Assembly (NCBI RefSeq): GCF_017916255.1
Contig: NZ_CP072827.1
Location: 6,225,501 to 6,289,500, forward strand
From: Streptomyces mobaraensis NBRC 13819 = DSM 40847
GTDB lineage: Bacteria > Actinomycetota > Actinomycetes > Streptomycetales > Streptomycetaceae
Reading direction: 5' to 3'
Length of the DNA stretch: 64,000 bases
Shown here: positions 17,403-38,658 of the stretch, in pieces
Layout of the letters: every line of letters starts with the position of its first letter
How positions within the stretch are numbered: the stretch's first letter is position 1
The notes under the pieces: generated by a model
What the model saw: only the letters and a program-made list of their open reading frames with translations
The model's database searches: none
What the model was told of the DNA's origin: nothing
Program-made: the position numbers and the translations under genes

Positions 17403-18344
17403 ATGCGACCGACCGTGCGACCGACAGGATTCATCCCGCCCCTCTGCACCCCCCTCACCCCCGACGGCGCCGTCGACACCCGCTCGCTGCACCGGCTCGT
17501 CGAGCACGTGCTGGACGGCGGGGCTTCGGCGCTGTTCGCGCTCGGCACGTGCGGCGAGGCCGTCTTCCTCACCGACGAGCAGCGCCGTACCGTCGTGCGG
17601 ACCGCCGTCGAGGCGGCCGGCGGACGCGTCCCCGTCCTCGCCGGCGTCATCGACACGACCACCCCGCGCGTGCTGGAGCGCGCGCGGGAGGCGGCCGGCC
17701 TGGGCGCCGACGTCCTCGTGGCCACCGCGCCGTTCTACACGGACACCCACCCCGCCGAGACCGCCGACCACTTCCGCCGCGTCCGCGCCGAGACGGGCCT
17801 GCCCCTGCTCGCCTACGACATCCCCTCCCGCGTCCACACCAAGCTGCCGCCCGCCGTCCTCCTGGGACTCGCCGAGGACCGCACCCTCGTCGGTCTCAAG
17901 GACAGCAGCGGCGACCTCGACACCCTGCGCCACCTCCTGGTGGCCCTCCGCCGCCGCGGCCTGGACCGCCGCTTCTCCGTCCTCACCGGCTCCGAACTCA
18001 CCGCCGACGCCGCCCTCCTGATCGGCGCCGACGGCGTCGTCGCCGGCCTCGGCAACGTCGATCCGGCCGCCTACACCCGCCTCCACACCCACGCCACCGC
18101 CGGCCGCTGGCCCGAAGCGGTCACCGAACAGAACCGCCTCACCACCCTCCAGACCCTGACCCGCGCGGCCGACCCGGCAACCATGAGCGGCACGGCGGCG
18201 GCCGTGGGAGCCTACAAGGCGGCGCTGGAACTCCTGGGAGTGATCGACTGCCGAGCCACGGCCACACCGCTGCGGCCGCTGCCGCAGGAGAGCGTGGAAG
18301 AGGTGCGTCGGCGCCTGGAGGAGGGCGGGCTGCTCCCAGGGTGA
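17403..18344 (+). CDS. Dihydrodipicolinate synthase/N-acetylneuraminate lyase family protein (DapA-like)
   Basis: 313 aa, ATG with AGGAGG 7 nt upstream. A TIM-barrel class I aldolase with expected landmarks: GGASALFALGTCGEAVFLT (family G-T-x-G-E substrate loop, with Cys in place of the usual Thr), PLLAYDIPSR containing the catalytic Tyr, and LVGLKDSSGD containing the Schiff-base Lys. It could make dihydrodipicolinate, or act on another 2-keto acid as many extra DapA paralogues do. The absence of lysine genes nearby argues for a paralogue. It forms the left flank of the defence island. Confidence 0.88.
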   Translation: MRPTVRPTGFIPPLCTPLTPDGAVDTRSLHRLVEHVLDGGASALFALGTCGEAVFLTDEQRRTVVRTAVEAAGGRVPVLAGVIDTTTPRVLERAREAAGLGADVLVATAPFYTDTHPAETADHFRRVRAETGLPLLAYDIPSRVHTKLPPAVLLGLAEDRTLVGLKDSSGDLDTLRHLLVALRRRGLDRRFSVLTGSELTADAALLIGADGVVAGLGNVDPAAYTRLHTHATAGRWPEAVTEQNRLTTLQTLTRAADPATMSGTAAAVGAYKAALELLGVIDCRATATPLRPLPQESVEEVRRRLEEGGLLPG

Positions 18345-18467: not shown

Positions 18468-18887
18468 ATGCCCGCCCTGGAGACCAACCCGAAGACCAGT
18501 GCCCGGATGAGCAAGCAGCGCAGTCGTGACACGGACATCGAGATCGCTCTCCGCAAGATCCTGCACGCCGCCGGTTTCCGGTACCGGGTCCACCGCAGGC
18601 CACTCAAGGGCGTGCGCCGTGAGGCCGACATCGTCTTCGGCCCGGCACGCGTCGCGGTCTTCGTCGACGGCTGCTACTGGCACGGCTGCCCCGAGCATGC
18701 GACGTGGCCGAAGACGAACGCCGGGTTCTGGCGGGAGAAGATCGAGAAGAACCGCACACGGGACCGCGACACCGACGCCCGGCTCGCCGAGGCGGGGTGG
18801 GCGTCGATCCGGATCTGGGAGCACGACAGCGCGGCGGAGGCGGCGGAGCGGATCGCCGCTCTGGTGCGAGAACGGCGGACCGGGTAG
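18468..18887 (+). CDS. vsr: Very short patch repair (Vsr) endonuclease
   Basis: 139 aa. The N-terminal segment SARMSKQRSRDTDIEIALRK matches the Vsr family start (M-S-x-x-x-x-x-D-T-x-x-E). The core FRYRVHRRPLKGVRREADIVF carries the catalytic Asp, and VAVFVDGCYWHGCPEH is the characteristic metal/zinc-ligand region. Vsr nicks DNA 5' of the T in T:G mismatches produced by deamination of 5-methylcytosine at the partner methylase's site. The stop codon is 69 nt before the cytosine methyltransferase start, the classical vsr-dcm pairing. The first gene of the island; an alternative internal ATG at 18507 would remove the N-terminal 13 residues. Confidence 0.9.
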   Translation: MPALETNPKTSARMSKQRSRDTDIEIALRKILHAAGFRYRVHRRPLKGVRREADIVFGPARVAVFVDGCYWHGCPEHATWPKTNAGFWREKIEKNRTRDRDTDARLAEAGWASIRIWEHDSAAEAAERIAALVRERRTG

Positions 18888-18943
18888 ATGCCGGCAGGCC
18901 GCGACGGTGCTGGAGCCGTCAATTCCGCTGGCCACCACAGGCT

Positions 18944-18949
18944 AAACTT
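18944..18949 (+). promoter_or_regulatory. Candidate -10 box for a leaderless methyltransferase mRNA
   Basis: TAAACT fits TAnnnT and ends 7 nt before the ATG at 18957. No ribosome site is seen there. No convincing -35 hexamer lies 16-18 nt upstream. Confidence 0.4.
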
Positions 18950-18956
18950 CCGCCAC

Positions 18957-20375
18957 ATGGCCAGCTCGGACACAGACTCGGGATTCCTCAAGGATCCGCA
19001 TATTTTGGACCTCTTCGCGGGTCCGGGCGGTCTCGATGTGGCCGCGCACATGCTCGGCGTGCCCTCACTCGGAATCGAGTGGGACAAGAACGCCTGTGAG
19101 ACGCGTTACGCGGCCGGCCTCCCGACGTTGCACGCGGACGTCAGCGCCGTGCGGCAGCACAGATTCGAAGAGCTGCCCAAGGCGCTGAACGTGCTGGCCG
19201 GCGGGCCGCCGTGCCAGACGTACTCGGTGGCGGGCAGCGGAGCCGGGCGCAAGGCCTTGGACAAGGTCGAGGGGCTCATTCACGATCTGGTGGCCGGTGC
19301 CGACGATCAGGAGATCGACAAGCGACTGGCGACGCTGGAGGGGAGCAGCCCGGAGGAGCAGCGCCGAGAGGGGTGGAAACCCGATCGGAGGACCGCCCTC
19401 GTCCTGGAACCCCTCCGCTATGCGATCAAGGCTCTCCACAGTCCCAACCGCGACCGGCGGCCGTTCGACGTGATCGTTTTGGAACAGGTGCCGCAGGTCA
19501 AGGCGCTCTGGGAGGTCTACCGAGAGGTATTGGAGAGCGGACTGCCCGGTGCGGACGGGCGCAAGGTGAAGTACAAGGTCGCCAAGGTGGAGACGCTGCG
19601 CACCGAGGCGTACGGAGTCCCCCAGACTCGCCGCCGTGCGATTCTCATCGCTCGACTCGAGCAGCATGGCGCCCCTTCCCTCCCCGGTGCCACTCACCAC
19701 ACCTTCAACCCTCACAAGCCGAAACAGGGTGGCCCCGAGGACGAGAAGGCGGTGGCGCAAGCGGCCGCCGTCCAGACCGCTCTGCCGATCGGGACGTCCC
19801 GGAAGCCGCCGGTGCCCTTGCCGTGGGTCCACATGTGGGAGGTACTGGGGAAGACGGAGCGGTTGCCGGGCGGCAGGAAATCCTCCTTCAAGATCGTGTC
19901 GAACTACGGAAGCGGCGGTGATCCGAAGAACCGAGGAGTCCGAACGGATCGCCAACCGTCCTTCACCGTCACGGGGAAGGTCTCCCGGAACGCCGTGCTG
20001 AACCCGGACGGCACGCCGCAGAAACCGGATCGTCTGACCATCCGAGAGGCCGGCATCCTCCAGACGTTTCCACCCAACTACCCCTGGTCCGGTGGCGATC
20101 GGTCGCAGCAGGTGGGCAATGCCGTACCACCGTTGTTCGGTATGCACGTGCTGACTGCGGCGCTCGGCCTGCCTCCCTTGACGGAGGAGGCGGAGAAGAA
20201 ACTGCGGAAAAACTGGCGCGAGTACAGCTACGACGAAGTCACCACCTTCCGCAAGGAGGGCTGTGGTGAACCGGACGGCTGCGGACCCGGCTGCCCGAAA
20301 CCCGAGGATCAGGCTGTCCCCTCCAAATCCTCCCGCCCCCGCACCGGCGCGTCCGCGAAGAGGTCCGAGAAGTAG
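18957..20375 (+). CDS. DNA (cytosine-5) methyltransferase, catalytically intact
   Basis: 472 aa from the ATG at 18957; an ATG at 18888, directly after the vsr stop, would add 23 unconvincing residues. Ordered C5-methylase motifs: I LDLFAGPGGLDVAA, IV GGPPCQTYS with catalytic Cys86, VI VLEQVPQV (usually ENV), VIII QTRRRAILIA, IX near GILQTFPPNYPWSG, X QQVGNAVPPLFGMHV. It would transfer methyl from AdoMet to C5 of cytosine in a specific site. Pairing with Vsr hints at a Dcm-like (CCWGG-type) sequence, an inference only. In class 2 DISARM the DrmMII methylase plays the self-marking role. Its last 67 nt overlap the convergent gene. A C-terminal Cys-rich stretch (EGCGEPDGCGPGCPKP) is unusual. Confidence 0.95.
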   Translation: MASSDTDSGFLKDPHILDLFAGPGGLDVAAHMLGVPSLGIEWDKNACETRYAAGLPTLHADVSAVRQHRFEELPKALNVLAGGPPCQTYSVAGSGAGRKALDKVEGLIHDLVAGADDQEIDKRLATLEGSSPEEQRREGWKPDRRTALVLEPLRYAIKALHSPNRDRRPFDVIVLEQVPQVKALWEVYREVLESGLPGADGRKVKYKVAKVETLRTEAYGVPQTRRRAILIARLEQHGAPSLPGATHHTFNPHKPKQGGPEDEKAVAQAAAVQTALPIGTSRKPPVPLPWVHMWEVLGKTERLPGGRKSSFKIVSNYGSGGDPKNRGVRTDRQPSFTVTGKVSRNAVLNPDGTPQKPDRLTIREAGILQTFPPNYPWSGGDRSQQVGNAVPPLFGMHVLTAALGLPPLTEEAEKKLRKNWREYSYDEVTTFRKEGCGEPDGCGPGCPKPEDQAVPSKSSRPRTGASAKRSEK

Positions 20376-21184
20376 TCCACCAGCGCGCTCACGGACAGCT
20401 CGGGCGCCGGCTCCTCCTCGGGACCGGTCGGGAGTTCCTGCCGTGAGACCTGGCGCGCGTACTCGGCTTCGGCGATCCAGTCGAGGAGGGGACGGGACTC
20501 GCGTTCGACGTCGGGGGCGATCACGTCGTACATCAGTGTTGCCGCCGACGCGTTGACGGCTCCCATGAGGGCGTTGACCTCGCGGCCGGTGGTGATCACG
20601 CTCTTCGCGACCAACCGGACGATCGCCTGAGCGGTGGGTCGGTGGTTGATCACCGACATGCGCAGGGCGGTGTTCATGATGTCCTGGTTGGCGCAGGCCG
20701 TGACGACGGGGGAGTAGTCTGAGCCGTCGCGGAAGAGCTCGGCCGCCCACCAGAGGCGGGCGAAGGACTGCTTGTGGTACTGCCCGCGGAACCGGTCGGC
20801 CGCCACCTTGGTATCCGACAGGTGCCGCCAGATCACGTAATCGGGAGCCACGCCGAGCGACAGGTAGTTCCAGAAACCGGGATCAGCCGCCTCGCGTCGG
20901 GTGAGTCGGAGCGCGGCGTGCAGTCGTGGTGCGAGCCAGGCGTCGGCCTGGGTGGCCTTGAGCCCGCCGGCCCGACAGTAGGCCATGGCGTCCTCGGCCA
21001 GGTCGCGGACGGGTAGCAGTTCGCCACGCCGGTCGGTGTGCGGCAGCGGTTCGGTGACCCGATTGAGCTTGAGGCTCTGCACGTCCTCGCGACCGGTCAG
21101 CAGCCCTTCGGTGAGGAATTCCGCCGCCTCGGCGTTGGGAAGGAGCGCGAGGCGCTCCGGGAGGTGGCTGGGCCGGTCGGTCAT
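20309..21184 (-). CDS. Unrecognised defence-island protein (possibly DUF6339-type)
   Basis: 291 aa, ATG at 21184 overlapping the upstream stop (ATGA). I recognise no catalytic motif. The sequence is mostly helical and Leu/Ala/Arg-rich with conserved-looking aromatic pieces: DPGFWNYLSLGVAPDYVIWRH, ARLWWAAELFRDGSDYSPV, ANQDIMNTALRMSVINHRP. The pattern 'WxY..RF.G...LWW.AEL.RDG.DY....QD..N' reminds me of the DUF6339 annotation, with low certainty. It is the last gene of a three-gene leftward operon with an unknown protein and the XRE-GHKL ATPase, which suggests the three act together. Its 3' end overlaps that of the methyltransferase by 67 nt, tail to tail. Confidence 0.7.
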   Translation of the reverse strand: MTDRPSHLPERLALLPNAEAAEFLTEGLLTGREDVQSLKLNRVTEPLPHTDRRGELLPVRDLAEDAMAYCRAGGLKATQADAWLAPRLHAALRLTRREAADPGFWNYLSLGVAPDYVIWRHLSDTKVAADRFRGQYHKQSFARLWWAAELFRDGSDYSPVVTACANQDIMNTALRMSVINHRPTAQAIVRLVAKSVITTGREVNALMGAVNASAATLMYDVIAPDVERESRPLLDWIAEAEYARQVSRQELPTGPEEEPAPELSVSALVDYFSDLFADAPVRGREDLEGTA

Positions 21185-22185
21185 GCGTCGTCCCCCTGGG
21201 TAAGGCGTTCCAGATCGCGGATGGTGGTGGAGAGCGTCCGGGGGACGCCCGCGCGTTTCGAGGCGGCGAAATGGATCCGGGGTTGGAGCTCGCCCCAGCC
21301 GGCGGCGGATGATCCCATGCGGGCCGCATGGACCTCGCGGAGGGCGTCCTCGGGATCGCGATCGGGATATACATCGGGAAGCATCGCCCGAAGCACTTCG
21401 CCCTGCCATCCGTGCGGGAACAGCGGAGTGCCGTCCTCCTCGATTTCCAAGTCGCCGACCGCCGAATGGAAGACGGCGGTCCAGACATCGGAGCACATCT
21501 GGGTGAGAAGAAGTTCCCGTACGGTCTTCTCCGCGCCGTTGCCGCCGTCACCGCCCATCAGCCCCTCGAGCCCGTCGAAGTCGGTGTTGACACGTACGGC
21601 GGGGAGCCTCCCGGTGGTGTCGACCACCCATGGGGAGTCCTTGAAGCGCCGCAGCCGACTCGCGCCGGAATCGAAGCCCAGTAGTTTGACGTCGAGTTCG
21701 CGAGCGAGGGAGGGCGCGGTCTCGATGACGTCGACGAACCATTCCACGTCGGAGGTGGAGATCACTCGGCCGCGCACGCCGTCCACCGTGGCGACGACAT
21801 GGACTGCCAGGGTGGCGCGGTCGAGGAGGTCGCACCGGTGGAGGTAGAGCTCGCCCGTCAGTTCGCGGCCGTCGGCGGCGACCGGGGACAGCTCCACGGC
21901 CGTCCGCGTGTTGGTGGCGCGCTCCGTGAGCACCGCGACGACCCTGACGTCCTGCCAGGTGTCGCCGGAATTCACCGCCTTGGCCGGCAACTCGGCCCGA
22001 AGGCGGAGCCGTGCCTGGACCCAGTCGGGACGGTCGTCGTTCGGCCCGAGGGCCACGACGCGCTCGATGGTGGAGAGGTATTTGCTCTCCACGTCTTCCC
22101 AGGGCTCGCCCTCGGCCTTGAGCTGCGCGCTGACGACACGCCAGGAGACGTTGCCGGTGAGTCGCCGGTAGGGGTAGACCTTCAC
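21181..22185 (-). CDS. Unrecognised defence-island protein
   Basis: 334 aa. The GTG at 22185 (VKVYPYRRLTGNVSWRVV) follows GGGAGAG and overlaps the stop of the XRE-GHKL gene (GTGA); the downstream gene overlaps it again. The N-terminal half is rich in beta-strand-like segments (DWVQARLRLRAELP, VRVVAVLTERATNTRTAVEL, LAVHVVATVDGVRGRVI). The C-terminal half is more helical, with KTVRELLLTQMCSDVWTAVF and WQGEVLRAMLPDVYPD. I see no nuclease, helicase or nucleotide-binding motif and assign no function. Tight coupling on both sides implies stoichiometric production with its neighbours, perhaps as part of a complex with the GHKL ATPase. Confidence 0.75.
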   Translation of the reverse strand: MKVYPYRRLTGNVSWRVVSAQLKAEGEPWEDVESKYLSTIERVVALGPNDDRPDWVQARLRLRAELPAKAVNSGDTWQDVRVVAVLTERATNTRTAVELSPVAADGRELTGELYLHRCDLLDRATLAVHVVATVDGVRGRVISTSDVEWFVDVIETAPSLARELDVKLLGFDSGASRLRRFKDSPWVVDTTGRLPAVRVNTDFDGLEGLMGGDGGNGAEKTVRELLLTQMCSDVWTAVFHSAVGDLEIEEDGTPLFPHGWQGEVLRAMLPDVYPDRDPEDALREVHAARMGSSAAGWGELQPRIHFAASKRAGVPRTLSTTIRDLERLTQGDDA

Positions 22186-24392
22186 GCCTGCTCTCCCTTC
22201 CCGCTGCGGAGTTCGACGACAAGCCCGGTGAGCTGGGCTCGGACGGGGTGGCGGGACACGTCGGTGACACCACGGAAGACGGCTTTGCGGCTGCCGGGGC
22301 TCAACCGCAGCGCCCCGTCGACGACCTCGCATCCGCTGACGGCGACGAGTTCCTTCCAGTGGGCGACGGGACGGGGGCCCGAGCGCACGTCGAACTTGGC
22401 GACCGGCGTGACAGGACGGTCCGTGTCGACACTCGGCGAGACGCGCAGGTCGACGGTGACCGACCAGGCCCCCGTCTCGTCGATCAACGCGTCCACGTTG
22501 TCCAGCTCGGGCAGCGCGGTGCCGGAGGGGCGCGGCTTCTTCGTGACGCCGCCCACCTTCAGCCGGCCGGCGATCTTCGCCTCCCCGCCGTTGCGGCGCT
22601 TGGCCCGGGGTACGGCGACGAGATCGCGTACCGCCTGGTTGGCGAGGGTGGTCAGAGTGGCGATGCGGCGGTGGGCGGATGGCGAGTAGGTGAGGCGGAG
22701 TTCCTCGGTCTGGCCCCACTTGTTGTGCTCCGGTGGCTCGGAGGCACGGAGGAACTCCTCGGCGGCGTCGGCGCCGGGGGCGTCCGGGCCTGCCGCGCGG
22801 CCGACGAGGAGGACGGCCTGGAACGGATTGGTGCCGATCGGGACGTTGGGGACGCCGTTGTTCTTGACGGTCATGCGATTGCCCCGCATGCAGACCAGTC
22901 GGTTGGGGCGACCCTCGACATCGTCCTCGGCGTTGGTGACCAGGACCACGGCCTCGTGAGACACGCCGCCGCGCACCTCGCCGCCCCGCAAGGGCACGCT
23001 CAGCCGCACGGTCGCGCGCGCGACCTGGCCCGGGGCGGTGAGGCGGTCGACCGTGTCGCCCTCGAGGAAGGCGCGTAGAGCACGGGTGCGGGACGGCTGG
23101 GTCTCGGCCGGATCCACGATCTCCTCGGGGATGAGGATCTCGCCGTTGCGGTACGTGCGAACGGACGCCTTCAAGTGCGCCTCGTGGCCGCCGCCCTCGG
23201 TCATCGCGGCCCAGAAGTTGCGGCCGAGCGCGTCCTTGAGCCTGGCGTGCATCCGCTGGACGGAGTCGTCGTCATCGACGCTGTCCTCGTCGCCGGTGAC
23301 CGGTGCCAGGCTGGCGACGTCATGGGCGCCGACGATGAGGAAGGACGTGCCGGGCTCACCGCTCTCGCGGGTGAGGTGGAGCCGTTCGACGGTCTCCTCG
23401 TCCGCCCACCAGGAACGGGCCACGTCACTGGACTTCGCGTTCGGGTCGGGGCGGCCGAACCAGGCCGGGCCCGCGAATGCCCTGCCGTCGACCTCGCGCC
23501 AGGGGAGATCGAGGCGGCCGATCAGACGGCGTTCGGTGCGCCCTTCGTGGGGCTCGGAGAGGGTGGAGTTGATCAGCACGAGCCCGAGGCGGCTGGTGGC
23601 CCAGAGCGTGGCCTTCCCGAGGCCGTAGGATCCGCCCGCGCCGGAGTCCTTCTTCTGGCTGTCGAGCTGTCGGCGTACGACCGCGGCGAAGAGCCCGTCG
23701 CCGTAGTCGTCGCCGGTGAGGCCCGTGGCGTTGTAATCGTCGACGCGGAGCAGTACCAGGCGATCGCGCTGGTACATGTCTCGCAGTCCGGCCGCGATCG
23801 TGCGCGAGACCTTGTCCTGTCGGCCGCCGTCGGCGGTGAACGCCTCGTAGTGCGGGAGCAGCCGTTCCCAGTCGACGGCCTCGCGGAAGCGGGAGAGGGC
23901 CTCACCGGTGAGTTCGTGCAGGGTGTATCGGACCCGGACGGGTCGGGTGGGGTCGAGACGCGCGTCCAGGCTGTTCTGGGTGGCCTCGCGGGCGAGGACC
24001 GAGACGTCGGCCTCGAAGGCGAACGCGGCGGCGTTGCCGTACTCGCGGCCGCCGTCGTCGTGAGCCGGCCGGTGGTACCACGAGACGGGCAGTCCCAGTT
24101 GGGCGTCGGCGCTGCGCGTGTGGATGGTCTCCAGGTCGGTGTTGAGCAGATCCGCGATGCGCCGGATCGTCTCGTCCCGGGGGACGGAACGGCCGACGAT
24201 CCAGGCCGAGACGGCGGCCCGGGTCATGCCGAGATCCACGGCCAGGTCCGTCTGGCTCTTCCCGGCGTTCCTGAGCTGGCGTGCCAGCCAGGGGCCGAAG
24301 TCCTCAGCCGCCTCCACGTCCCACCCGCTTCCGATCGATGCACCCGAGTGAGAGCCACCGTACCCCACCGCTGTTGACGGGGTGACCGCCAC
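22182..24392 (-). CDS. XRE-type HTH fused to GHKL (HATPase) ATPase
   Basis: 736 aa from GTG 24392 (start uncertain; GTG 24317 is an alternative just before the HTH). Residues ~30-90 form a Cro/C1 helix-turn-helix: LRNAGKSQTDLAVDLGMTRA, then VSAWIVGRSVPRDETIRRIA. After a linker comes a GHKL ATPase domain: N-box EATQNSLDA (E136, N140, D143), G1 RVDDYNATG (216-224), lid loop GAGGSYGLGK (251-260). MORC-, Hsp90- and MutL-like ATPases share this fold and clamp on or remodel DNA. The remaining ~450 residues are unassigned. An HTH-ATPase fusion could both repress its operon and act as an effector. A 17-bp palindrome abuts the start, suggesting autoregulation. First gene of the leftward operon. Confidence 0.85.
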   Translation of the reverse strand: MAVTPSTAVGYGGSHSGASIGSGWDVEAAEDFGPWLARQLRNAGKSQTDLAVDLGMTRAAVSAWIVGRSVPRDETIRRIADLLNTDLETIHTRSADAQLGLPVSWYHRPAHDDGGREYGNAAAFAFEADVSVLAREATQNSLDARLDPTRPVRVRYTLHELTGEALSRFREAVDWERLLPHYEAFTADGGRQDKVSRTIAAGLRDMYQRDRLVLLRVDDYNATGLTGDDYGDGLFAAVVRRQLDSQKKDSGAGGSYGLGKATLWATSRLGLVLINSTLSEPHEGRTERRLIGRLDLPWREVDGRAFAGPAWFGRPDPNAKSSDVARSWWADEETVERLHLTRESGEPGTSFLIVGAHDVASLAPVTGDEDSVDDDDSVQRMHARLKDALGRNFWAAMTEGGGHEAHLKASVRTYRNGEILIPEEIVDPAETQPSRTRALRAFLEGDTVDRLTAPGQVARATVRLSVPLRGGEVRGGVSHEAVVLVTNAEDDVEGRPNRLVCMRGNRMTVKNNGVPNVPIGTNPFQAVLLVGRAAGPDAPGADAAEEFLRASEPPEHNKWGQTEELRLTYSPSAHRRIATLTTLANQAVRDLVAVPRAKRRNGGEAKIAGRLKVGGVTKKPRPSGTALPELDNVDALIDETGAWSVTVDLRVSPSVDTDRPVTPVAKFDVRSGPRPVAHWKELVAVSGCEVVDGALRLSPGSRKAVFRGVTDVSRHPVRAQLTGLVVELRSGKGEQA

Positions 24393-24409
24393 GTCAAATG
24401 AACTTTGAC
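24393..24409. promoter_or_regulatory. 17-bp palindrome, candidate operator of the XRE-GHKL protein
   Basis: GTCAAA-TGAAC-TTTGAC: two perfect 6-nt arms around a 5-nt centre, immediately upstream of the GTG at 24392. Another TTGAC half-site lies nearby (TTGACG, about 24374-24379) facing a CGTCAA that overlaps the first arm. Size and symmetry fit operators of XRE/Cro-type regulators. The position between divergent defence operons would allow control of both. Confidence 0.6.
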
Positions 24410-24728
24410 AGGGGCCGGCTCGGCCCGGGGAAGTCTTGTGGGCGACAAAATTCGGAGTCTGGAATTCCGCCCTATTCGTAGAGAAATGCGTAAGAAGTTC
24501 CCTGGGCGGCCGTACCGAATCGACCGAGGGCGCCCCTTGCGTTGCCCTGGGATTCCGTGATGAGATCTCACCTCAGCCGCCCCACCGGCAAGTTGGGTCA
24601 ACTGCCTGCTCCCAGGGCACCGTTGTGCCTTTTTCGGTCGGATCGCCCCCACGCGACCCGGTCTCTTCCGCACCGCCTCGCACCACTTCCTCGTGAACTC
24701 CCACGAAAGCGAAAGCGCAGGTACCCCA
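24410..24728. other. 319-nt divergent intergenic region with potential leader structure
   Basis: Less GC-rich than its surroundings; no gene recognised. TGCCCTGGGA (24543-24552) and TCCCAGGGCA (24610-24619) are perfectly complementary across 57 nt. The loop contains the palindrome TGAGATCTCA (24561-24570) and an AGTT/AACT pair (24591-24603). This could be a structured leader for the rightward defence operon. An in-frame GTG at 24693 would start the small protein here but lacks a ribosome site. No clear promoter pair was found. Confidence 0.4.
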
Positions 24729-24980
24729 GTGCCCTTGAAAAAGACCCCGCTTGACGAGATGCGCACCATCGTTCGCCAGTACGACGCGCTGGCCGACGAT
24801 CCTGAGGCTCAGGCGGCGTACCTCGGCCTCATGGGTGGGCTCGACCACGGCATGGTCGCCTCCTATCGCGACGTCCTCCTCGGCGAAGTCTCCGCGACGA
24901 ACCGTCGCCGCCCGCAGCGGAACCCGACGGGCCGTCAGCGCGTCGCCACGGTCACGATCACTCTGCACGTCGTCCGCTGA
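24729..24980 (+). CDS. Small unrecognised protein at the head of the rightward defence operon
   Basis: 83 aa from the GTG at 24729 (MPLKKTPLDEMRTIVRQYDAL), preferred over GTG 24693 because GCAGG lies about 9 nt upstream. The N-terminal ~55 residues look helical and acidic (YDALADDPEAQAAYLGLMGGLDHG). The C-terminus is basic (TNRRRPQRNPTGRQR) and ends in a beta-like VATVTITLHVV. No family recognised. It ends 55 nt before the giant GHKL-helicase and probably shares its transcript. It may be a small accessory or antirestriction-like factor, but coding status itself is only moderately sure. Confidence 0.5.
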   Translation: MPLKKTPLDEMRTIVRQYDALADDPEAQAAYLGLMGGLDHGMVASYRDVLLGEVSATNRRRPQRNPTGRQRVATVTITLHVVR

Positions 24981-25035
24981 CGGCACGGCCCGTCAGCTGC
25001 CCCCGCCCGCCCCTCGCCCGAAAGTGGAACCCTTC

Positions 25036-29793: not shown

Positions 29794-31703
29794 CCCTTTC
29801 CGTCGTCGAAGCTCCCGCTCTCACCCCCGAGCAACAGGCGGTCGTGGACCAGCCCTGGGATACCCGCCTGCTGGTCACCGCGGGAGCGGGGTCGGGCAAG
29901 ACCCACACGCTCGTACGCCGCCTGGACGCGCTCGTCGGTCACGTCGACCCCGACGAGGCCCTGGAAGCCTCCGAGCTGTTGGTCCTCAGCTTTTCCCGGG
30001 CCGCCGTCCGCGAGCTGCGAGACCGCATCGCCCGGCACGGCGAGCACGCGAGGAGGGTTCGCGTGCAGACCTTCGACTCCTGGGCGTACTCCCTGCTGGT
30101 ACAGGCGTACCCGGACGGGGAGTGGGCGGCGCTCTCCTTCGACGAGCGCATCCGGGCGGCCACCGCGGCGATCGAGAAGGGCGCGCTGGACACGATGGAG
30201 TCGGGCCCGCCCGCCCATGTGATCGTCGACGAGGTGCAGGACCTCGTGGGCGTCCGCCGGGAGATGGTCGAGTCGCTGCTCGACCGGCTCCAGGACTCCT
30301 GTGGGTTCACCCTCGTCGGTGACTCGGCCCAGGCGATCTACGACTTCCAGATCGAGGACCCGGAGGAGTACGCCGACCGCGCCGACCTCTTCCTCCGTTG
30401 GGTGCGTGCCTCGTACGCCGACGATCTGGTGGAACTGAACCTGACCCGTAACTTCCGGGCCGCCACGCCCGAAGCGCGTACCGCTCTCCCGCTCGGCCCG
30501 GCCGTGCAGGGCATCGGCAGCGCCCCCGAAGGCGCGGACGCGGCAGCCGAACGGCTCCACGGAGACCTGCGCGAGCTGCTGCTCGACCTGCCCGACCTGG
30601 GTCCGCTCGACGACGCGTTCACCCTGGACACCCTGCGGTCCTTCCCCGGCACCTGCGCCGTCCTGACCCGCGACAACCGCCAGGCCCTGCTCGTATCGGA
30701 ACGGTTGCATTTGCACGGCGTGCCGCACGCTCTACGGCGCTCGCTCCGGGACCGACCGGTGCCGTACTGGGTCGCCGAACTGCTGCGTCGCACCCGGGCC
30801 GCCACCCTCACCGAGGAACGGCTGCGGGAACTGCTGGACGGGATGCCGCTGCCGGAGGGCACCGATCCGGACCGGGTGTGGCGGGCTCTGCGGGCGGCGG
30901 CACGCGGCACCGGCAGGGGCACGCTCGACGTGGCACGAGTGCGCGGACTGGTGGCGGAGCGTCGCTTCCCCGACGAACTGGCCGACCCGGAACCGGCCCG
31001 ACTGATCGTGTCCACGGTGCACAGCGCCAAGGGCTTGGAGTTCGACCGGGTGGTACTGCTCACTCCGCCGACCGTCGCGGAACTGCGTCGTCGCCGTGCC
31101 GACCGACTCGACGTGCCCGCCGAGGCCCGCGCCCTCTACGTGGCGATGACCAGGGCTCGGGAGGACCTCTATCGCCTCGCCCCGCCGGACACGGTGATGT
31201 TGCGGAGACACATGCCGACCGGCCGCTGGTACAGGGGAGCGCCGCGGCAGGGATGGCGTCGCCACGGCATCGAGGTACGGGCCGGTGACGTGAGTGCCCT
31301 GGAGCCGGCCGACGCCCGGGAGAACGCCCTCGCAGCGCAGGCGTATCTGTTGGAGCGCGTACGGCCGGGAGACGCCGTGACGTTCCGGCTGCACGACTTC
31401 CTTCCCATGGGCCCCGTGCAGAGCCCCCGGTACGCGTTGCTGCACGAGGGACGTGAGATCGGCGAGGCTTCCGAGACTTTTAGAACCGACCTGTACTCCG
31501 TCCTGAAGGTCGGCCCCGACTGGGACGTCCGGTGGCCGGAGGAGATCGTCGGACTGCGGATCGACTGCCTGGAGTCGGTCTCGGGCAGCACGGCCGCCGG
31601 GGCCAACGCCGGCCTGGGCGGTCACGGAGTGTGGATCGCCCCGCGCGTCGGCGGAATCGGACGGTTCCGGCGTTCGGCCGGAACCGAGGAGGAGCAGGAA
31701 TGA
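29790..31703 (+). CDS. UvrD/Rep-like SF1A helicase
   Basis: 637 aa. The GTG at 29790 (VTLSVVEAPALTPEQQAVVD) has GGAG 6 nt upstream and overlaps the previous stop. SF1 motifs in order: Q motif LTPEQQAVVD, Walker A GAGSGKTH (~31), Ia-like LLVLSFSRAAVRELRDR, II VIVDEVQDL (~144), III TLVGDSAQAIYDFQ, IV-region LNLTRNFRA, V STVHSAKGLEFDRVV (~406), VI ALYVAMTRAREDLYRL (~450). These enzymes unwind DNA 3'-to-5'. The ~180 residues after motif VI are not typical of UvrD and are unassigned; no nuclease motif is evident. Being coupled between the GHKL-helicase and the DrmA-like protein, it is very likely a component of the same system. Confidence 0.9.
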   Translation: MTLSVVEAPALTPEQQAVVDQPWDTRLLVTAGAGSGKTHTLVRRLDALVGHVDPDEALEASELLVLSFSRAAVRELRDRIARHGEHARRVRVQTFDSWAYSLLVQAYPDGEWAALSFDERIRAATAAIEKGALDTMESGPPAHVIVDEVQDLVGVRREMVESLLDRLQDSCGFTLVGDSAQAIYDFQIEDPEEYADRADLFLRWVRASYADDLVELNLTRNFRAATPEARTALPLGPAVQGIGSAPEGADAAAERLHGDLRELLLDLPDLGPLDDAFTLDTLRSFPGTCAVLTRDNRQALLVSERLHLHGVPHALRRSLRDRPVPYWVAELLRRTRAATLTEERLRELLDGMPLPEGTDPDRVWRALRAAARGTGRGTLDVARVRGLVAERRFPDELADPEPARLIVSTVHSAKGLEFDRVVLLTPPTVAELRRRRADRLDVPAEARALYVAMTRAREDLYRLAPPDTVMLRRHMPTGRWYRGAPRQGWRRHGIEVRAGDVSALEPADARENALAAQAYLLERVRPGDAVTFRLHDFLPMGPVQSPRYALLHEGREIGEASETFRTDLYSVLKVGPDWDVRWPEEIVGLRIDCLESVSGSTAAGANAGLGGHGVWIAPRVGGIGRFRRSAGTEEEQE

Positions 31704-34700
31704 CCATCCACGCAGGGCGGCACGCCGCACACTACGAGGTCCGCGAGGATCTGGTGGCCCGGCTCCGCCGGGAGCTGCTGGGCCCGGACGTCGGAGCCTC
31801 CGCCGAGGAACGCGCCGAAGTGCTGGACCAGGACGCTCCGATCACCCGTTACCCCATGGGGGTCCTCTTCCCCCGCCCGGCGGACGCCGAGGCCGCCCGT
31901 CGGCTCGAGGAGGACGAACACGAGCAGAACGGCCCGGACGGAGAGCTCGTGCCCGGGAGGGAGAGCCTCGACGATTCGGGGGAGACCGTCGATCGTCCGG
32001 TCGCCGGCGTCCGACGCCCGTCCTCCGTCGGCCTGACCTTCGCCGTCGACCCCGCCGTCTGCCGGGAGATCGTGGTCTCCGCACGCGCGGCCGTGTACGA
32101 GCCGGAGGACGCCGAGGGCCGCAGGATCCCGGCTCGTCGCAGCGAGGCTCGCACCACCTCCGACCAGCGGGAGCGCTGGTGTCGGGTGGAGCTGGACCTG
32201 CCGGACGTCACGGTGGACGTCACGCGGCCGGGACGGGGCGCGTCGTGCGACCTGGTCGACGGCATGGTGCGGCTGGAGGTGCACGTACGTCGTCCGTCGG
32301 CGGAGACGGGGACGGTCACGGTCACGGTCGCCCTGGTCAACGTCCAGAGGGTGGGAGAGCGGGAACTCCAGGACGCTTTCGCCCTGTTCCAGCCCGGTCT
32401 TGTGATCCGCGCCGCCGACGGTTCGAGCGCTTTCGTCGAGCGCCCCGCGGCCCTGTCCGCCGCGGACCCCGAGCTGGAGACCGGCCGGTTGTTGCACCGG
32501 CACGCCCCGACCTTCGCCACCGGTCACGGCTGTGCGGCAGTGTGGGACTGGGAACCGGTCCCGGTCGGCCTCACCGATGTGCGGCACGCGGGTGTCACCG
32601 AGGTGCGCACCGAGTTCCTGCCCACGCACGAGGTGCTGCTCACCGACTCCAACCCGGAGATCGACGACCGCGCTCTGACCATGCTGGGCCTCGCCGAGGC
32701 GCCCGACGCCGAGGTGCTCGCCGCCCTGGAAGGGCTGGCCGCGGGCTACGAGCAGTGGATCGAGCGGAAGCGGGCCGAGGCCGCGGCCCTTGCCGGCACG
32801 GCGCACGAGGAGGCCGCGGCAGCCCAGGTCGCGGCCTGCGGAGAGGCGTTGGACCGGATCCGGCAAGGCATCGCGCTGCTGCGGGACAAGCCTGACCTGA
32901 TGCGGGCGTTCCGCCTGGCCAACCAGGCGATGGCCGTGCAGCGCTCCCGCAGCGCCTGGATCAAGGCCGATCGGGTCGGTGAACCGGACCTCGCCTCGGC
33001 GCGCTGGCGACCGTTCCAGATCGCCTTCGTCCTGCTGTGCCTGGCCGGTGTGGACGACCCCGAGCACCCGGACCGGGGCGTGTCGGACCTGCTGTGGTTC
33101 CCCACCGGCGGCGGCAAGACCGAGGCGTATCTCGGCCTGATCGCGCTGACCACCTTCCTGCGACGGATGCGCCGCGGCGCGGCGGGCGGCGGTGTCACCG
33201 TCCTGATGCGCTACACGTTGCGTCTGCTCACCCTCCAGCAGTTCGAGCGCGCCGCGATCCTGATCTGCGCCATGGAGCGGATGCGTCGTGCGAACCCCGC
33301 CGATCTCGGCCAGGAGGAGATCTCCCTGGGCATGTGGGTGGGGCAGTCGGCCACTCCGAACACTCTGGAGGCGGCCGATCGACAGCTCGTCGCCGCTCGT
33401 TCCGGGAGGACGCTCCAGACGGAGAACCCGGTCCAGCTGCACGCCTGCCCGTGGTGCGGGACGGCCCTCGACGCCCACCATTACTCGGTCGATCGGGACG
33501 CCGTCCGGATGGACGTGCGCTGCCCCGGAACTGACTGCGCGTTCTCCGGCGGGCTGCCCGTGCACCTGATCGACGAGACGGTGTACCGGGCCCGGCCCAC
33601 CCTGGTGATCGCCACCGTCGACAAATTCGCCTCGATGCCGTGGCGACCGCAGACCGCCGCGCTGTTCAACCGGGACCGCCAGGACACCACCCCGCCACCG
33701 GAGTTGATCGTGCAGGACGAGCTGCACCTGATCTCCGGTCCGCTGGGGACCCTCACCGGTCTGTACGAGACGGCCGTCGACGTGCTCGCCGATCGGCCCA
33801 AGGTGATCGCCTCGACCGCGACCATCCGTCGCGCCGGCGACCAGGGCAGGGCCTTGTTCTGTCGCGAGGTGCGCCAGTTCCCGCCCGCCGGCCTCGACGC
33901 CCGCGACTCCTGGTTCGCCGTGGAGACCCCGGCCGGAGAGAAGGCCTCCCGCCGATACGTGGGCCTGTTCGCTCCCGGCACCAGCCAGTCGACGTTGTTG
34001 ATCCGCACTTACGCCACCCTGCTGCACCAGGCGATGCGAACCGACACCACCCCGCAGGTCCGCGACGCGTACTGGACGCTGGTCGGCTATTTCAACAGCC
34101 TGCGCCTGCTGTCCGCCGCCGAACTCCAGGTCCACGACGACGTCGTGGCCCACCTGGAGCACCTGGCCGAACGCGACGGTTGCGAGCCCCGCTCCGTAGG
34201 CAACAACTCCGAGCTGACCAGTCGGGTCGACGCCAGCGACATCCCGGCCCGCCTCAAGCAGATCGAGCGCCGGTTGCCCGGTGACGACGTGGTGGACGTG
34301 CTCCTGGCCACGAACATGATCGCCGTAGGCGTGGACGTGGACCGTCTGGGCTTGATGGCCGTCATGGGACAACCGCAGACCACCGCCGAGTACATCCAGG
34401 CCACCAGCCGGGTGGGCCGTGCCCACCCCGGCCTGGTGGCGGTGATGCTCAACGCGACGCGCCCGCGCGACCGTTCCCACTACGAGAACTTCCAGCACTT
34501 CCACTCCGCGCTCTACCGCGAGGTCGAGTCCACCTCGGTGACCCCCTTCTCGGCCCGTGCGCGTGACCGTGGGCTGCACGCGGTGATCGTCTCCTTGGCT
34601 CGCATCCTGATTCCCGCCGCCCGTGCCGACACGGCCGCCGGGGACATCGACCTCTTCGTGGACGAGCTGAGGGAGCGGATCCGCCCCATGATTCTCGAAC

Positions 34701-34963
34701 GGGTGGCGAAGGTCTCCCCGGAAGCGACCGCCGCCAAGGAGGTCGAGAACGTGGGCGCGGCCTTCGACGAGTTCGTCGACTGGTGGTACGACGAGGCCGA
34801 GCGGCACGGGGGCCTCCACTACGAGCCGAAGCGCGGACGCCGCGTCCCCTCGCTGCTCAAGTCCTACAACGACGCCCTGGAGGACGTCGAGGCGTGGGGG
34901 ACCCTCTGGTCCCTCCGCGATGTCGACGCCGAGTCCGCCCTGTTCATGGAGGCATCCCGATGA
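31700..34963 (+). CDS. drmA: DrmA-like SF2 helicase (DISARM-type)
   Basis: 1087 aa, ATG at 31700 with GAGGAGGAG before it, overlapping the previous stop (ATGA). Helicase motifs: WFPTGGGKTEAYLG (Walker A, ~467), TVLMRYTLRLLTLQQFERA, VQDELHLISGPLG (motif II as DELH, ~672), ASTATIRRA (motif III), ATNMIAVGVDVDRLGLM, and YIQATSRVGR (motif VI). A zinc-ribbon-like insertion (HACPWCGTA...RCPGTDCAF) separates motif Ib from II. The layout and the following DUF1998 partner match DISARM DrmA, which with DrmB forms a DNA-binding complex; known DrmA proteins are somewhat longer. The N-terminal ~400 residues are strand-rich and unassigned. Confidence 0.75.
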   Translation: MTIHAGRHAAHYEVREDLVARLRRELLGPDVGASAEERAEVLDQDAPITRYPMGVLFPRPADAEAARRLEEDEHEQNGPDGELVPGRESLDDSGETVDRPVAGVRRPSSVGLTFAVDPAVCREIVVSARAAVYEPEDAEGRRIPARRSEARTTSDQRERWCRVELDLPDVTVDVTRPGRGASCDLVDGMVRLEVHVRRPSAETGTVTVTVALVNVQRVGERELQDAFALFQPGLVIRAADGSSAFVERPAALSAADPELETGRLLHRHAPTFATGHGCAAVWDWEPVPVGLTDVRHAGVTEVRTEFLPTHEVLLTDSNPEIDDRALTMLGLAEAPDAEVLAALEGLAAGYEQWIERKRAEAAALAGTAHEEAAAAQVAACGEALDRIRQGIALLRDKPDLMRAFRLANQAMAVQRSRSAWIKADRVGEPDLASARWRPFQIAFVLLCLAGVDDPEHPDRGVSDLLWFPTGGGKTEAYLGLIALTTFLRRMRRGAAGGGVTVLMRYTLRLLTLQQFERAAILICAMERMRRANPADLGQEEISLGMWVGQSATPNTLEAADRQLVAARSGRTLQTENPVQLHACPWCGTALDAHHYSVDRDAVRMDVRCPGTDCAFSGGLPVHLIDETVYRARPTLVIATVDKFASMPWRPQTAALFNRDRQDTTPPPELIVQDELHLISGPLGTLTGLYETAVDVLADRPKVIASTATIRRAGDQGRALFCREVRQFPPAGLDARDSWFAVETPAGEKASRRYVGLFAPGTSQSTLLIRTYATLLHQAMRTDTTPQVRDAYWTLVGYFNSLRLLSAAELQVHDDVVAHLEHLAERDGCEPRSVGNNSELTSRVDASDIPARLKQIERRLPGDDVVDVLLATNMIAVGVDVDRLGLMAVMGQPQTTAEYIQATSRVGRAHPGLVAVMLNATRPRDRSHYENFQHFHSALYREVESTSVTPFSARARDRGLHAVIVSLARILIPAARADTAAGDIDLFVDELRERIRPMILERVAKVSPEATAAKEVENVGAAFDEFVDWWYDEAERHGGLHYEPKRGRRVPSLLKSYNDALEDVEAWGTLWSLRDVDAESALFMEASR

Positions 34964-36828
34964 CCCCGCCCCCTTCCCGCCGTCGGCGGGGCACCGACGG
35001 CTCGCCGGTACCGGCCCGCACCCTGCCCCGCCGCGGGGCGGTCCGGCGTGCCCAGGCCATCACCACGTACGGTGTGGGATCCCTGGTCGCCGTGGAGCAG
35101 GAATCGTTCATCGTCACCGGTATCGACGGCGCCGAGGCGCAGTGGTCCCGCGACGAGGCCCCGGTGATCCACGAGCCGCGCCTCGCCCGCGTGCTCGGGG
35201 TCCGGCGGTTCCGGCTCCCCCCGGCCTCCGGCGACGGCAGCCGCGACGGAATCCGGGTGCGTCGCTTCCCCCTGTGGCACCACTGTCCCGAGTGCCACGC
35301 GCTCGACCACGTGCGGCGATTCAACTCACCGCCCGGACGCAACGAGTGCGCGGAGTGCTCCGAGACGCTCGTGCCGTCGCGTTTCGTGATGGCCTGCGAG
35401 GACGGGCACATCGCCGACTTCCCGTATTGGAAGTGGCTCCACAGGGGCCGACGCGGTGACGGCGAGGCCGGTTTCTGCGGGGGCCGGATGAGCCTGCGCT
35501 CATCGGGCCGCACCTCGTCGCTCCGTTCGGTGGTGCTCTCCTGCTCCTGTGGAGTCCCGGACGTGTCCATGGAGGGCTCCTTCCGTCGCGGCGCACTCAA
35601 GGACCTGAAGATCCGCTGCGAGGGCAAGCGTCCCTGGCTGAGGGACGCCCCGGACGTCCCCTGCTCGCAGCCGCCCCGGACCCTGCAGCGTGGTTCCTCC
35701 TCGGTGTGGCAGCCCGTGCTCCGCTCGGCCCTGTCCATTCCGCCGTGGAGCGACACCCGCGTACAGGCCCTGGCCGGCCACTGGGACGAGCTCCGCGCCT
35801 GCTCCACTCCCGCCGAGATCGAAATCCACTTGAAGTACATCTTCGACGGCGCTCCTTCCCCGATGAGCGCCCGGCAGGTCATGGACATGCTCGCCGCGAT
35901 GGAGGCCGAGGACCCCATCGGGGAGGACCACGGGTCCGACGTGGACCGGGAGCGACGCTACCGGGCTCTACGGGACGTGGAGTACGAGCGTCTGTGCGCG
36001 GGCAACCCGGAGGACTCCGGCCGCCACACCGAACAGTTCGTGTGCGAGCCTCCGACCGGTGACACGACGTCACTGTCCGGCCTGGGGCTGGTCGCTCCGA
36101 TGCTGGTGAAGAAGCTCCGCGAGGTGCGCGCCCTCAAGGCCTTCACCCGGATCATCGACCCCGAGACCTCCTCCGAGGGCCATGAGGCGGAGCTTTCCCT
36201 CGCTCCCACCGACTGGCTGCCGGCCATGGAGGTCCACGGCGAGGGAGTCTTCCTCCGGCTGGACGAGGACAGGATCGACGCCTGGGCCGAACACCCGGGA
36301 GTCGCCGCCCGAGTGGAACACATGCGTCGTCGGCACCAGCGGGTCCTCACCGAACGGGCCTCCGATCCGGGGCGGGTCCCGCTCTCTCCCGCAACCCCGC
36401 GCATGGTCCTGCTGCACACCCTCGCGCACGTGATGATCAACGAATGGAGCCTGGACTCCGGATACCCGGCTGCCTCGCTCCGTGAGCGCGTCTACTCCGG
36501 TGACGAGATGGCGGGCGTGCTCGTCTACACGGCCACCAGCGACTCGGCCGGCAGCCTCGGCGGTCTCGTGGCGCAAGGGGAGGTCGACCGCCTTGTCCCG
36601 GCGGTGCGCTCGGCGATCCACCGTGCCGAGTGGTGCTCCGCGGACCCGCTCTGCGTCGAGACCGAGGCGTCGGGTGTCGGCGGCACCAACATGGCGGCCT
36701 GCCATGCCTGCGTGATGCTTCCGGAGACCAGTTGCGAGCACAACAACGGACTGCTCGACCGAGCCCTCCTCGTCGGCACCCCTGAGGACCCGTCGATCGG
36801 TTTCTTCTCTCGCCTGCTCGCTCCCTGA
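34960..36828 (+). CDS. drmB: DrmB-like protein with DUF1998
   Basis: 622 aa, ATG at 34960 behind GGAGG and overlapping the drmA-like stop (ATGA). The start RRGAVRRAQAITTYGVGSLV resembles the DrmB N-terminus. A zinc site follows (CPECHALDHV...CAECSE, from ~109), then VMACEDGHIADFPYWKW. The C-terminus is a DUF1998 domain: LLHTLAHVMINEWSLDSGYPA, VLVYTATSDSAGSLGGLV, CSADPLCVE and ACHACVMLPETSCEHNN, where Cys/His residues form a metal site. In DISARM, DrmB binds DrmA and activates it against unmodified phage DNA; the length agrees with the ~70-kDa DrmB. It is last in the rightward operon. Confidence 0.8.
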   Translation: MTPPPSRRRRGTDGSPVPARTLPRRGAVRRAQAITTYGVGSLVAVEQESFIVTGIDGAEAQWSRDEAPVIHEPRLARVLGVRRFRLPPASGDGSRDGIRVRRFPLWHHCPECHALDHVRRFNSPPGRNECAECSETLVPSRFVMACEDGHIADFPYWKWLHRGRRGDGEAGFCGGRMSLRSSGRTSSLRSVVLSCSCGVPDVSMEGSFRRGALKDLKIRCEGKRPWLRDAPDVPCSQPPRTLQRGSSSVWQPVLRSALSIPPWSDTRVQALAGHWDELRACSTPAEIEIHLKYIFDGAPSPMSARQVMDMLAAMEAEDPIGEDHGSDVDRERRYRALRDVEYERLCAGNPEDSGRHTEQFVCEPPTGDTTSLSGLGLVAPMLVKKLREVRALKAFTRIIDPETSSEGHEAELSLAPTDWLPAMEVHGEGVFLRLDEDRIDAWAEHPGVAARVEHMRRRHQRVLTERASDPGRVPLSPATPRMVLLHTLAHVMINEWSLDSGYPAASLRERVYSGDEMAGVLVYTATSDSAGSLGGLVAQGEVDRLVPAVRSAIHRAEWCSADPLCVETEASGVGGTNMAACHACVMLPETSCEHNNGLLDRALLVGTPEDPSIGFFSRLLAP

Positions 36829-36832
36829 GCGC

Positions 36833-36874
36833 CGGAGGACGACACCCTGGGAGGCAGGCGAAAGACGTCCTCCG
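36833..36874. terminator. Convergent terminator-like hairpin between drmB-like and methylase-like genes
   Basis: CGGAGGACG (36833-36841) and CGTCCTCCG (36866-36874) are perfectly complementary with a 24-nt loop, inside the 98-nt gap between converging genes. There is no T-tract, so assignment as a bidirectional terminator is tentative. Confidence 0.4.
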
Positions 36875-36926
36875 TCGGGCCGGCGGGGGGCACGCGGGGT
36901 TCATCGGTGTCCCGTCTCGCGGACGG

Positions 36927-37925
36927 TCAGTCCCCGCCGGCGAGCGCGGCCCGGACGGCGAGTCCCAGGGCCCGACCCACCGGAGGCGGTGAGGCGTGCC
37001 CTACCTGGCGGTAACGGACCGTCTTCCGCCCGGCGAAGCTCCAGTCGTCCGGGAAGCCCTGCAGGCGTGCGGCCTGCTCCACGGTCAACGCCACCATGCC
37101 CTTGACACCGAGCGACACGTCCCAGGGGAACTCGGGCCCCGGGGGCTCGTCGGCGACGGTTCCCCCGTTCACGCGCATACGGGCCCAGGAACGCTTCGAC
37201 CCGGTCGGCCCCAGGTCGGCCCCGCCGCGGTTCCACGAGCCGCCGACCAGGGTCGGGGCGACCCGGTCGGCCTGGGCCGCCCACGCCGTCGCATGAGGCC
37301 AACCGCGGGCGGCCATGGAATCGCCGAGCGCCTCGCCCACGGTGGGTGGCGGGTTCTCGTCGGGCGTGGGGACGACGAAGTCCCCGACCGAACCTTCTTT
37401 GAAGGCCACGAGGATTCCCTGCTTGCGGTCCTGGGGCACGCCGTGGTCCATCGCGTTGAGAACGAACCAGTGGTGCCGGTACCCGAGATGCCTCAGCTCG
37501 GCGGAGACGTACGCGCGAATCGGCTCGTAGGCGGGCTTGGAGACCAAGTCCGGGACGTTCTCGACGAGCAGGGCGCGGGGCTGTACGCCGTGCATCAACA
37601 TGATCGTCGCCTCGAGCACCCGTATCTCCTCGGCGCTGTCCGCGCGCGCCACGGCGGCCCCGGCCTTCACCCGCGGCAAACCGGCGGCCAAGAGATCGAC
37701 ATCGTAGGTGGCCTGATGGTCCACCGGATCGAAGTCCAACAGGTCCGTTTCGAGGACGTTCCACCGCGGACGATTGAGGCGCAGGGTCTCGCAGGCGACC
37801 GGGCGGTTGTCCAGAAGCAACACGGGATCGAAACCGGCCTGTTCGAGGCCGAGAGCGAGACCGCCCGCGCCGGCGCACACGGCGAGGCAGCTGAGGCGTT
37901 CGAGGGGGGACTCTTCCATGATCAC
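36927..37925 (-). CDS. C5-cytosine methyltransferase homologue lacking the catalytic PCQ motif
   Basis: 332 aa from the GTG at 37925 (GGAAG 10 nt upstream); ATG 37919 is an alternative. C5-methylase architecture is kept: motif I CAGAGGLALGLEQAGFDPV, motif VI LLVENVPDLV, motif VIII GVPQDRKQGILVAF, motif IX ARLQGFPDDWSF, motif X VGHASPPPVGRALG. Motif IV, normally G-P-P-C-Q, reads AGLPRVKAG at 81-89, so Arg85 replaces the nucleophilic Cys. The protein should not methylate by the known mechanism. The frame is otherwise uninterrupted and cleanly ordered, so this looks like a conserved pseudoenzyme rather than decay. It may be a site-sensing subunit of the island or an inactive partner of the intact methylase. 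Confidence 0.85.
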   Translation of the reverse strand: MIMEESPLERLSCLAVCAGAGGLALGLEQAGFDPVLLLDNRPVACETLRLNRPRWNVLETDLLDFDPVDHQATYDVDLLAAGLPRVKAGAAVARADSAEEIRVLEATIMLMHGVQPRALLVENVPDLVSKPAYEPIRAYVSAELRHLGYRHHWFVLNAMDHGVPQDRKQGILVAFKEGSVGDFVVPTPDENPPPTVGEALGDSMAARGWPHATAWAAQADRVAPTLVGGSWNRGGADLGPTGSKRSWARMRVNGGTVADEPPGPEFPWDVSLGVKGMVALTVEQAARLQGFPDDWSFAGRKTVRYRQVGHASPPPVGRALGLAVRAALAGGD

Positions 37926-38494: not shown

Positions 38495-38545
38495 CGTACG
38501 CGCTCCGCTCGGGCGCTCCGTCAAGTGGCGTCCGGCGCGCGGGGC

Positions 38546-38585: not shown

Positions 38586-38658
38586 CAGCGGTCTTGTCAT
38601 AGAGACGCGTCATGGCGGGTCGGGTCGGCAGAGGCGACGGTCACGGGGAGCGAGCCGG

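Follow-up and report, generated by a model that had tools for sequence, protein, structure and literature searches.

What kind of system is encoded by the block of about 20 kb that runs from a vsr gene to a cytosine methylase homologue, designated M2, on the Streptomyces mobaraensis chromosome? The block occupies positions 18468-37925 of the window, which is the whole stretch of 64,000 nucleotides analysed here. To our knowledge, few defence systems have been worked out in Streptomyces. From what is observed directly (the genes and motifs present, an architecture that stays fixed, exchange of modules, replacement of the catalytic Cys by Arg in M2 and fusion of a DUF6339 protein to M2), we propose, with a probability of roughly 55%, that the block is a composite, methylation-licensed anti-phage system of two docked modules. 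This composite is best described as a MORC/paraMORC-type methylation module combined with a DISARM-type helicase module. The block is made of a left module (Vsr, the methylase M1, M2 and the proteins uA, uB and xGHKL) and a right module (GHKLhel, UvrD, DrmA and DrmB).

The original prediction had named a contiguous set of defence genes. Family-model scans of the ten proteins confirmed all of the named components but one, and the locus is indeed contiguous, with two divergent operons instead of a single operon. The features are as follows (aa, amino acids; SF, superfamily).

18468..18887, plus strand: vsr, mismatch endonuclease, left module (NCBIfam TIGR00632, 119.1 bits, cut-off 97.85; PF03852, 70.2 bits)
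18888..20375, plus strand: M1, C5 cytosine methylase, left module (PF00145, 89.1 bits; PADLOC MTase_II, 241.9 bits)
20309..21184, minus strand: uA, DUF6339 protein of 291 aa, left module (PF19866, 43.5 bits, cut-off 23.2; PADLOC PDC-M33C, E 4.1e-6)
21181..22185, minus strand: uB, protein of 334 aa with no family, left module (unmatched in Pfam and PADLOC at E<=1)
22182..24392, minus strand: xGHKL, XRE helix-turn-helix with GHKL (MutL/MORC-like) ATPase, left module (PF01381, 40.3 bits, cut-off 23; PADLOC PDC-M33A, E 2.7e-23)
24393..25035, no strand: divergent intergenic region (position only)
25036..29793, plus strand: GHKLhel, sacsin-like GHKL with RadD-like SF2 helicase, 1585 aa, right module (NF047352, 66.5 bits, cut-off 50; PF04851, PF00271)
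29790..31703, plus strand: UvrD-like SF1 helicase, GajB-like, 637 aa, right module (PF00580, 89.3 bits; PADLOC GajB, E 3.4e-27)
31700..34963, plus strand: DrmA, SF2 helicase of 1087 aa, right module (NF038325, 1023.2 bits, cut-off 950; Serratia DrmA 7s9v, E 5.5e-179)
34960..36828, plus strand: DrmB, DUF1998/MZB protein of 622 aa, right module (NF038324, 463.4 bits, cut-off 240; PF09369, 35.4 bits)
36927..37925, minus strand: M2, C5-methylase homologue, left module (PF00145, 128.3 bits)

The leftward operon consists of xGHKL, uB and uA, and the rightward operon of GHKLhel, uvrD, drmA and drmB. The vsr and M1 genes converge on uA, and M2 converges on drmB. M1 starts at 18888 or 18957 and xGHKL at 24392 or 24317; the gap between the divergent operons is 0.64-0.72 kb. 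Given the starts assumed, the predicted 4-nt overlaps are found at five junctions, each of exactly 4 nt (21181, 22182, 29790, 31700 and 34960). The region 24393..25035 is a probable shared control region of the two operons, and the XRE domain may control it. The component that fell away was the small protein predicted at 24729-24980; it had no homologue at E<=1e-3 in loci L033-L092 by tblastn, and this open reading frame (ORF) is probably not a gene.

It had also been predicted that these genes travel together. A DrmA search of 392 genomes of the genus gave 110 matches in 103 genomes, which split into 63 at 54-100% identity and 47 at 38-45% identity; xGHKL was present in 83 of the 392 genomes. 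Fifty-nine of the 63 high-identity DrmA genes had xGHKL within 25 kb, and a sixtieth pair, in G143, was split over two contigs, so that the genes do travel together, in about 15% of the sampled Streptomyces species (60/392). The lower coordinates of xGHKL and DrmA were 9.35-11.44 kb apart, on opposite strands in all 59 cases. Named carriers of the block include S. griseus NCTC13033 (L171) and S. glaucescens NRRL B-2706 (L192). The remaining three high-identity DrmA genes, in G285, G094 and G381, had no xGHKL within 25 kb. When 36 loci drawn from the 62 high-identity DrmA besides that of the window were fetched, uA-uB-xGHKL faced GHKLhel-uvrD-drmA-drmB in the same order and strands in 33, with 38-86% identity to the window for the seven core genes. 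This conserved seven-gene arrangement is more than chance. The genes also co-diverge, as judged from pairwise distances, which are not independent of one another: in up to 34 loci, the correlation (rho) was 0.90-0.94 in the left core, 0.94-0.96 in the right core and 0.79-0.89 between them. In 61 GTDB loci it was 0.81-0.85 in the left core, 0.57-0.75 between the left core and GHKLhel, and 0.17-0.56 between M1 and the others.

The original reading, a DrmAB module recruited to a GHKL/UvrD machine, is partly supported, and is refined to two separable modules. Of the 47 low-identity DrmA genes, 8 had xGHKL within 25 kb, and in the three that were read (L119-L121) a NERD gene lay between. A right module of this NERD-DrmAB kind was found in 17 of 80 GTDB loci. 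That the left module pairs repeatedly with DrmAB speaks for a composite system. In a third arrangement, in Nocardia flavorosea (L178), the left module is co-directional behind a GHKLhel-NERD-DrmA module. M1 fell into four types across the 80 GTDB loci, three of which were found with both right modules. DrmAB can accordingly be seen as a unit that is swapped between systems and is joined here to a methylation/MutL module, and it becomes testable how, and by what, DISARM-type helicases are licensed.

An unusual left-module protein is M2. In its motif IV, Arg replaces the catalytic Cys (GLPR for PCQ), while the ENV of motif VI is kept. Arg was found in all 25 sequences aligned, that of the window among them; in 64 of the 65 copies from GTDB loci that cover the site, with one His and no Cys; and in 119 of the best 120 of 5125 homologues, with one Gln (by pattern, two by eye), the three sequence sets overlapping one another. 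Homologues beyond the best 120 probably include active methylases. Motif VI in the 25 sequences was ENV in 21, ENI in three and ENM in one. The M2 count excludes L071, an unrelated methylase with PCQ, and L208, in which motif IV is uncovered. Fourteen of the 80 GTDB loci had no M2 match above 150 bits in the sequence fetched, and some of these may carry M2 beyond drmB, as the window does. The consistent Cys-to-Arg replacement is new here; homologues of M2 are mostly named 'DNA cytosine methyltransferase' in databases despite Arg in nearly all of the best 120.

The position of M2 is variable. It lies between vsr and M1 in most relatives read, and the order vsr-M2-M1 or M2-M1 was seen on the left side in the extended stretches of G357, G142, G085, G157, G245, G108 and G203. 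M2 is beyond drmB in the window and in its nearest relative, G339; in G136, the methylases and vsr are both beyond drmB. In G285, DUF6339 and M2 are fused in one 615-aa ORF, the M2 part of which carries Arg. The distances of M2 correlated with those of M1 at rho 0.56, and with those of uA, uB, xGHKL and GHKLhel at 0.26-0.40 (the 61 GTDB loci). For the part of M2 that we take to be at the target recognition domain position, rho was 0.43 with M1, 0.20 with uB and 0.23 with xGHKL (64 loci). The simplest reading is that M1 and M2 would be a specificity pair bound to DUF6339.

M1 looks active: its motif IV PCQ was kept in 33 of 33 aligned sequences and EQV replaced ENV of motif VI in 36 of 36, window included, after exclusion of matches below 30% identity; three extracted proteins end short of motif IV. 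In xGHKL, QNxLD and GGSxGLGK, which we take to be an N-box-like motif and a glycine box, were conserved in 53 aligned sequences, and no Pfam GHKL model matched at E<=0.01. As a separate observation, xGHKL has an internal stop in L053 (G223) and a TAG close to the 3' end in L033 (G339), which may mean that certain copies are degenerating. The predicted structure of uA is all-helical (predicted local distance difference test, pLDDT, 89.5), with no convincing structural match in the fold search. That of uB begins with an immunoglobulin-like beta-sandwich, and its C-terminal half is helical (pLDDT 89.5, predicted template modelling score 0.59); the relatives of uB numbered 152 in 84,980 species genomes, and 80 of these relatives were kept. 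On the right side, helicase motifs were conserved in GHKLhel and UvrD in conserved-site scans, with GAGxGKT and DExQD in the UvrD-like protein (37 aligned). The N-terminal part of GHKLhel, and only this part, matched PADLOC TmtA (E 2e-37), and the closest PDB entry was RadD, 6jde (E 2.7e-21). Between the GHKL and helicase parts of GHKLhel there are about 850 aa, partly conserved, with no assigned function.

From these proteins the following mechanism is proposed. M1 would mark the host DNA at its recognition site, and Vsr would repair the T:G mismatches arising from deaminated 5-methylcytosine. M2 should not methylate, because its nucleophilic Cys is Arg; with uA and uB it may constitute a DNA-reading complex that is paired with M1 and binds target sites unmarked by M1. 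The MutL/MORC-like ATP clamp xGHKL would close on the unmarked DNA and recruit the right module; in addition, it may act as a repressor at its own divergent promoter. The sacsin-GHKL/RadD helicase, UvrD and DrmAB would then load on foreign DNA that has been unwound, and would strip it, unwind it further and block it, either on their own or aided by host nucleases. Complex formation, methylation sensing, this recruitment order and the antiphage activity are what we infer. A more specific version, which would be a class of defence of its own, is that M2 is a dedicated dead cytosine methylase acting as a sensor: it would flip or probe target cytosines without covalent capture, signal the lack of methylation by way of DUF6339 and the MutL-like clamp, and license interchangeable DISARM-type helicase effectors. 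The methylase pair would then be the part that is exchanged to set specificity, and DrmAB an effector that plugs in. We put this forward tentatively, as possible and open to considerable doubt, and the modest link of M2 to M1 over the 64 loci makes it slightly less likely; if true, DISARM would be a particular instance of a broader plug-in arrangement.

Several points weigh against the composite, methylation-licensed system. No clear restriction nuclease was recognised in the block by the sequence scans or by the fold searches of uA and uB, and no nuclease motif was recognised by eye in the middle of GHKLhel in the conserved-site scan. Reading of methylation by M2 is our supposition. The correlation of M2 with M1 was modest: over the 64 loci, whole M2 gave rho 0.46 with M1, 0.42 with xGHKL and 0.35 with uB, and in the 61 GTDB loci M1 versus GHKLhel, at 0.52, was nearly as high as M1 versus M2, at 0.56. 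In the set of up to 34 loci, M1 against anything gave -0.03 to 0.07, some M1 ends being poorly delimited. Block inheritance alone can produce such co-divergence. In addition, 16 loci have xGHKL but no DrmA within 25 kb, and in 14 of them the left module stood alone, with no credible right-module gene found in the fetched sequence; one of these has a 47-residue drmB match (E 5e-4) taken as chance, and the contig of one stops 4.6 kb beyond xGHKL. The remaining two of the 16 are G143, with the full arrangement over its two contigs, and G098, which ends 0.8 kb past xGHKL. Vsr was present in only 8 of the 14 stand-alone loci. The right module occurred without the left one, and with other partners, in G563, G285, G094 and G381. 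Each module is thus found alone, and neither strictly needs the other. These separate occurrences would fit two independent neighbouring defence systems, one for restriction-modification of the MORC/paraMORC type and one with DISARM-like helicases, which share inheritance as a defence island and are uncoupled, for which the lower correlation between modules than within them in both sets also speaks. Beside this stands the arrangement kept in 33 of the 36 fetched loci, and we regard two uncoupled systems as rather unlikely.

The composite system also has to be compared with DISARM. Both have DrmA and DrmB in tandem, here above the curated DISARM cut-offs, and a cytosine methylase nearby; the block differs in adding the sacsin-GHKL helicase, UvrD, XRE-GHKL, DUF6339, uB, Vsr and a second methylase that lacks the Cys. 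According to the part of PMC9142583 drawn on here, DrmAB is the DISARM core and its ATPase is lowered by methylated DNA. As had been predicted, drmE was not found: the one PADLOC DrmE model (PDLC02636) was unmatched in the own genome, with a control that matched 1 of 14, and DrmE was not among the PADLOC matches listed for the ten block proteins (the best 25 for four of them). Nor was drmC found in the locus, likewise as predicted: PLDc_2 (PF13091) was unmatched in the window (6.23-6.29 Mb) and matched only at 4.34 and 7.09 Mb; the one short PADLOC DrmC model was unmatched, weakly so, as its control also matched nowhere. Neither the DrmD SNF2 helicase nor the DrmMI adenine methylase of class 1 DISARM was found among the ten scanned proteins, the sole match of the DrmD model being GHKLhel at E 0.0015. 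Because drmC and drmE were not found, the block is not DISARM proper.

Another reading takes the block as a class 2 DISARM that varies or has degraded, with DrmA, DrmB and a cytosine methylase as the working core and the rest as accessory; this would agree with the DrmA and DrmB scores. The missing drmC is less telling than originally held, because DrmC is dispensable and often missing in DISARM, as stated in the part of PMC9142583 used here. Such a variant is nevertheless improbable: drmE was not found with its one model, and both methylases fit other models better than DrmMII (M1, MTase_II 241.9 versus 61.9 bits; M2, DruM2 295.3 versus 95.6 bits; PADLOC). Moreover, uA, uB, xGHKL, GHKLhel and uvrD persist at 38-86% identity throughout the 33 loci, which is unlike degrading accessories.

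Three other descriptions come close to the composite system. In 2008, MORC/paraMORC ATPases were predicted to have a role in restriction-modification, alongside SFII helicases, Dcm and Vsr (Iyer, Abhiman and Aravind, PMC2292703). In the part of that paper considered here, the neighbourhoods likewise have a GHKL ATPase (in the block, the GHKL-like xGHKL) with a C5 methylase and Vsr, and SFII helicases nearby; the same part mentions neither a DrmAB-type pair of helicases nor DUF6339, and neither a Cys-less methylase nor a sacsin-GHKL domain fused to a helicase. Conversely, no partner with a restriction endonuclease fold besides Vsr was recognised in the block by sequence scans. The PADLOC candidate PDC-M33 shares xGHKL (PDC-M33A) and DUF6339 (PDC-M33C) at the E values listed above; the DUF6339 match is weak, uB has no match, and PDC-M33 is a candidate in a model library. 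A second PDC-M33C model was unmatched in the genome, as was its control anywhere, and no mention of the name was found in open-licence PubMed Central papers. ARMADA (Bell et al. 2025, PMC12458937) combines a YprA/DrmA-family helicase, a GajB/UvrD-like helicase and a methylase as the block does, and has of its own a BrxHII-like helicase, a PglX-like methylase and a YprA with a fused C-terminal Vsr nuclease, none of which was found among the ten scanned proteins. In the block, DrmA and DrmB are separate genes, the methylases are of the C5 type, and BrxH models match GHKLhel weakly (E 4.6e-4); the text on ARMADA (PMC12458937) lacks the words GHKL and MutL. No published system with the same gene set was found in open-licence PubMed Central, in line with the original reading, although one may be described in a preprint or a subscription journal. 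The architecture and the Cys-less methylase are new; most components were already known.

Two plasmid loci carry related genes. On the Tsukamurella tyrosinosolvens plasmid NZ_LR134452.1 (L221), a cytosine methylase, UvrD, DrmA and DrmB adjoin an ARMADA type II-like set of a DEAD helicase, a large methylase, a large Zn-binding protein and UvrD. On the mobilizable plasmid NZ_CP029836.1 of Azospirillum ramasamyi (L222), UvrD-DrmA-DrmB-NERD helicase genes are followed by a DarT-like gene.

A DapA-like gene borders the block on one side and a YjbR gene on the other, in agreement with the prediction. In a relative without the block (G018), the DapA-like and YjbR protein matches are 25 bases apart, and its DNA aligns to window positions 16255-17213, 17423-18334 and 38160-40673; because the alignment covers the two flanks only, 18.33-38.16 kb is missing there as one piece. 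About 1.5 kb separates the two genes in another relative (G008). The GC content is 0.699 inside the block versus 0.743 and 0.739 in the flanks, and no integrase was found among the ten block proteins by Pfam scans. Patchiness, empty-site insertion, low GC and a changeable methylase are usual marks of defence islands. A non-antiviral DNA-repair or methylation-maintenance cassette, with the MutL-like ATPases, UvrD, Vsr and the RadD-like helicase acting at mismatches in methylated sites, would suit RadD as the closest solved helicase and the linkage of MutL, UvrD and Vsr in mismatch and very-short-patch repair (in the part of PMC2292703 used here), and is very improbable in view of the patchy presence (63 high-identity DrmA in 392 genomes), the insertion at an otherwise empty site, the lower GC and the changeable M1. 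Streptomyces huiliensis (L143), in which the system is present, has a flank of DapA and endonuclease V in common with the window. The endonuclease V gene lies just outside the block, at window positions 16519-17226, in the flank common to relatives.

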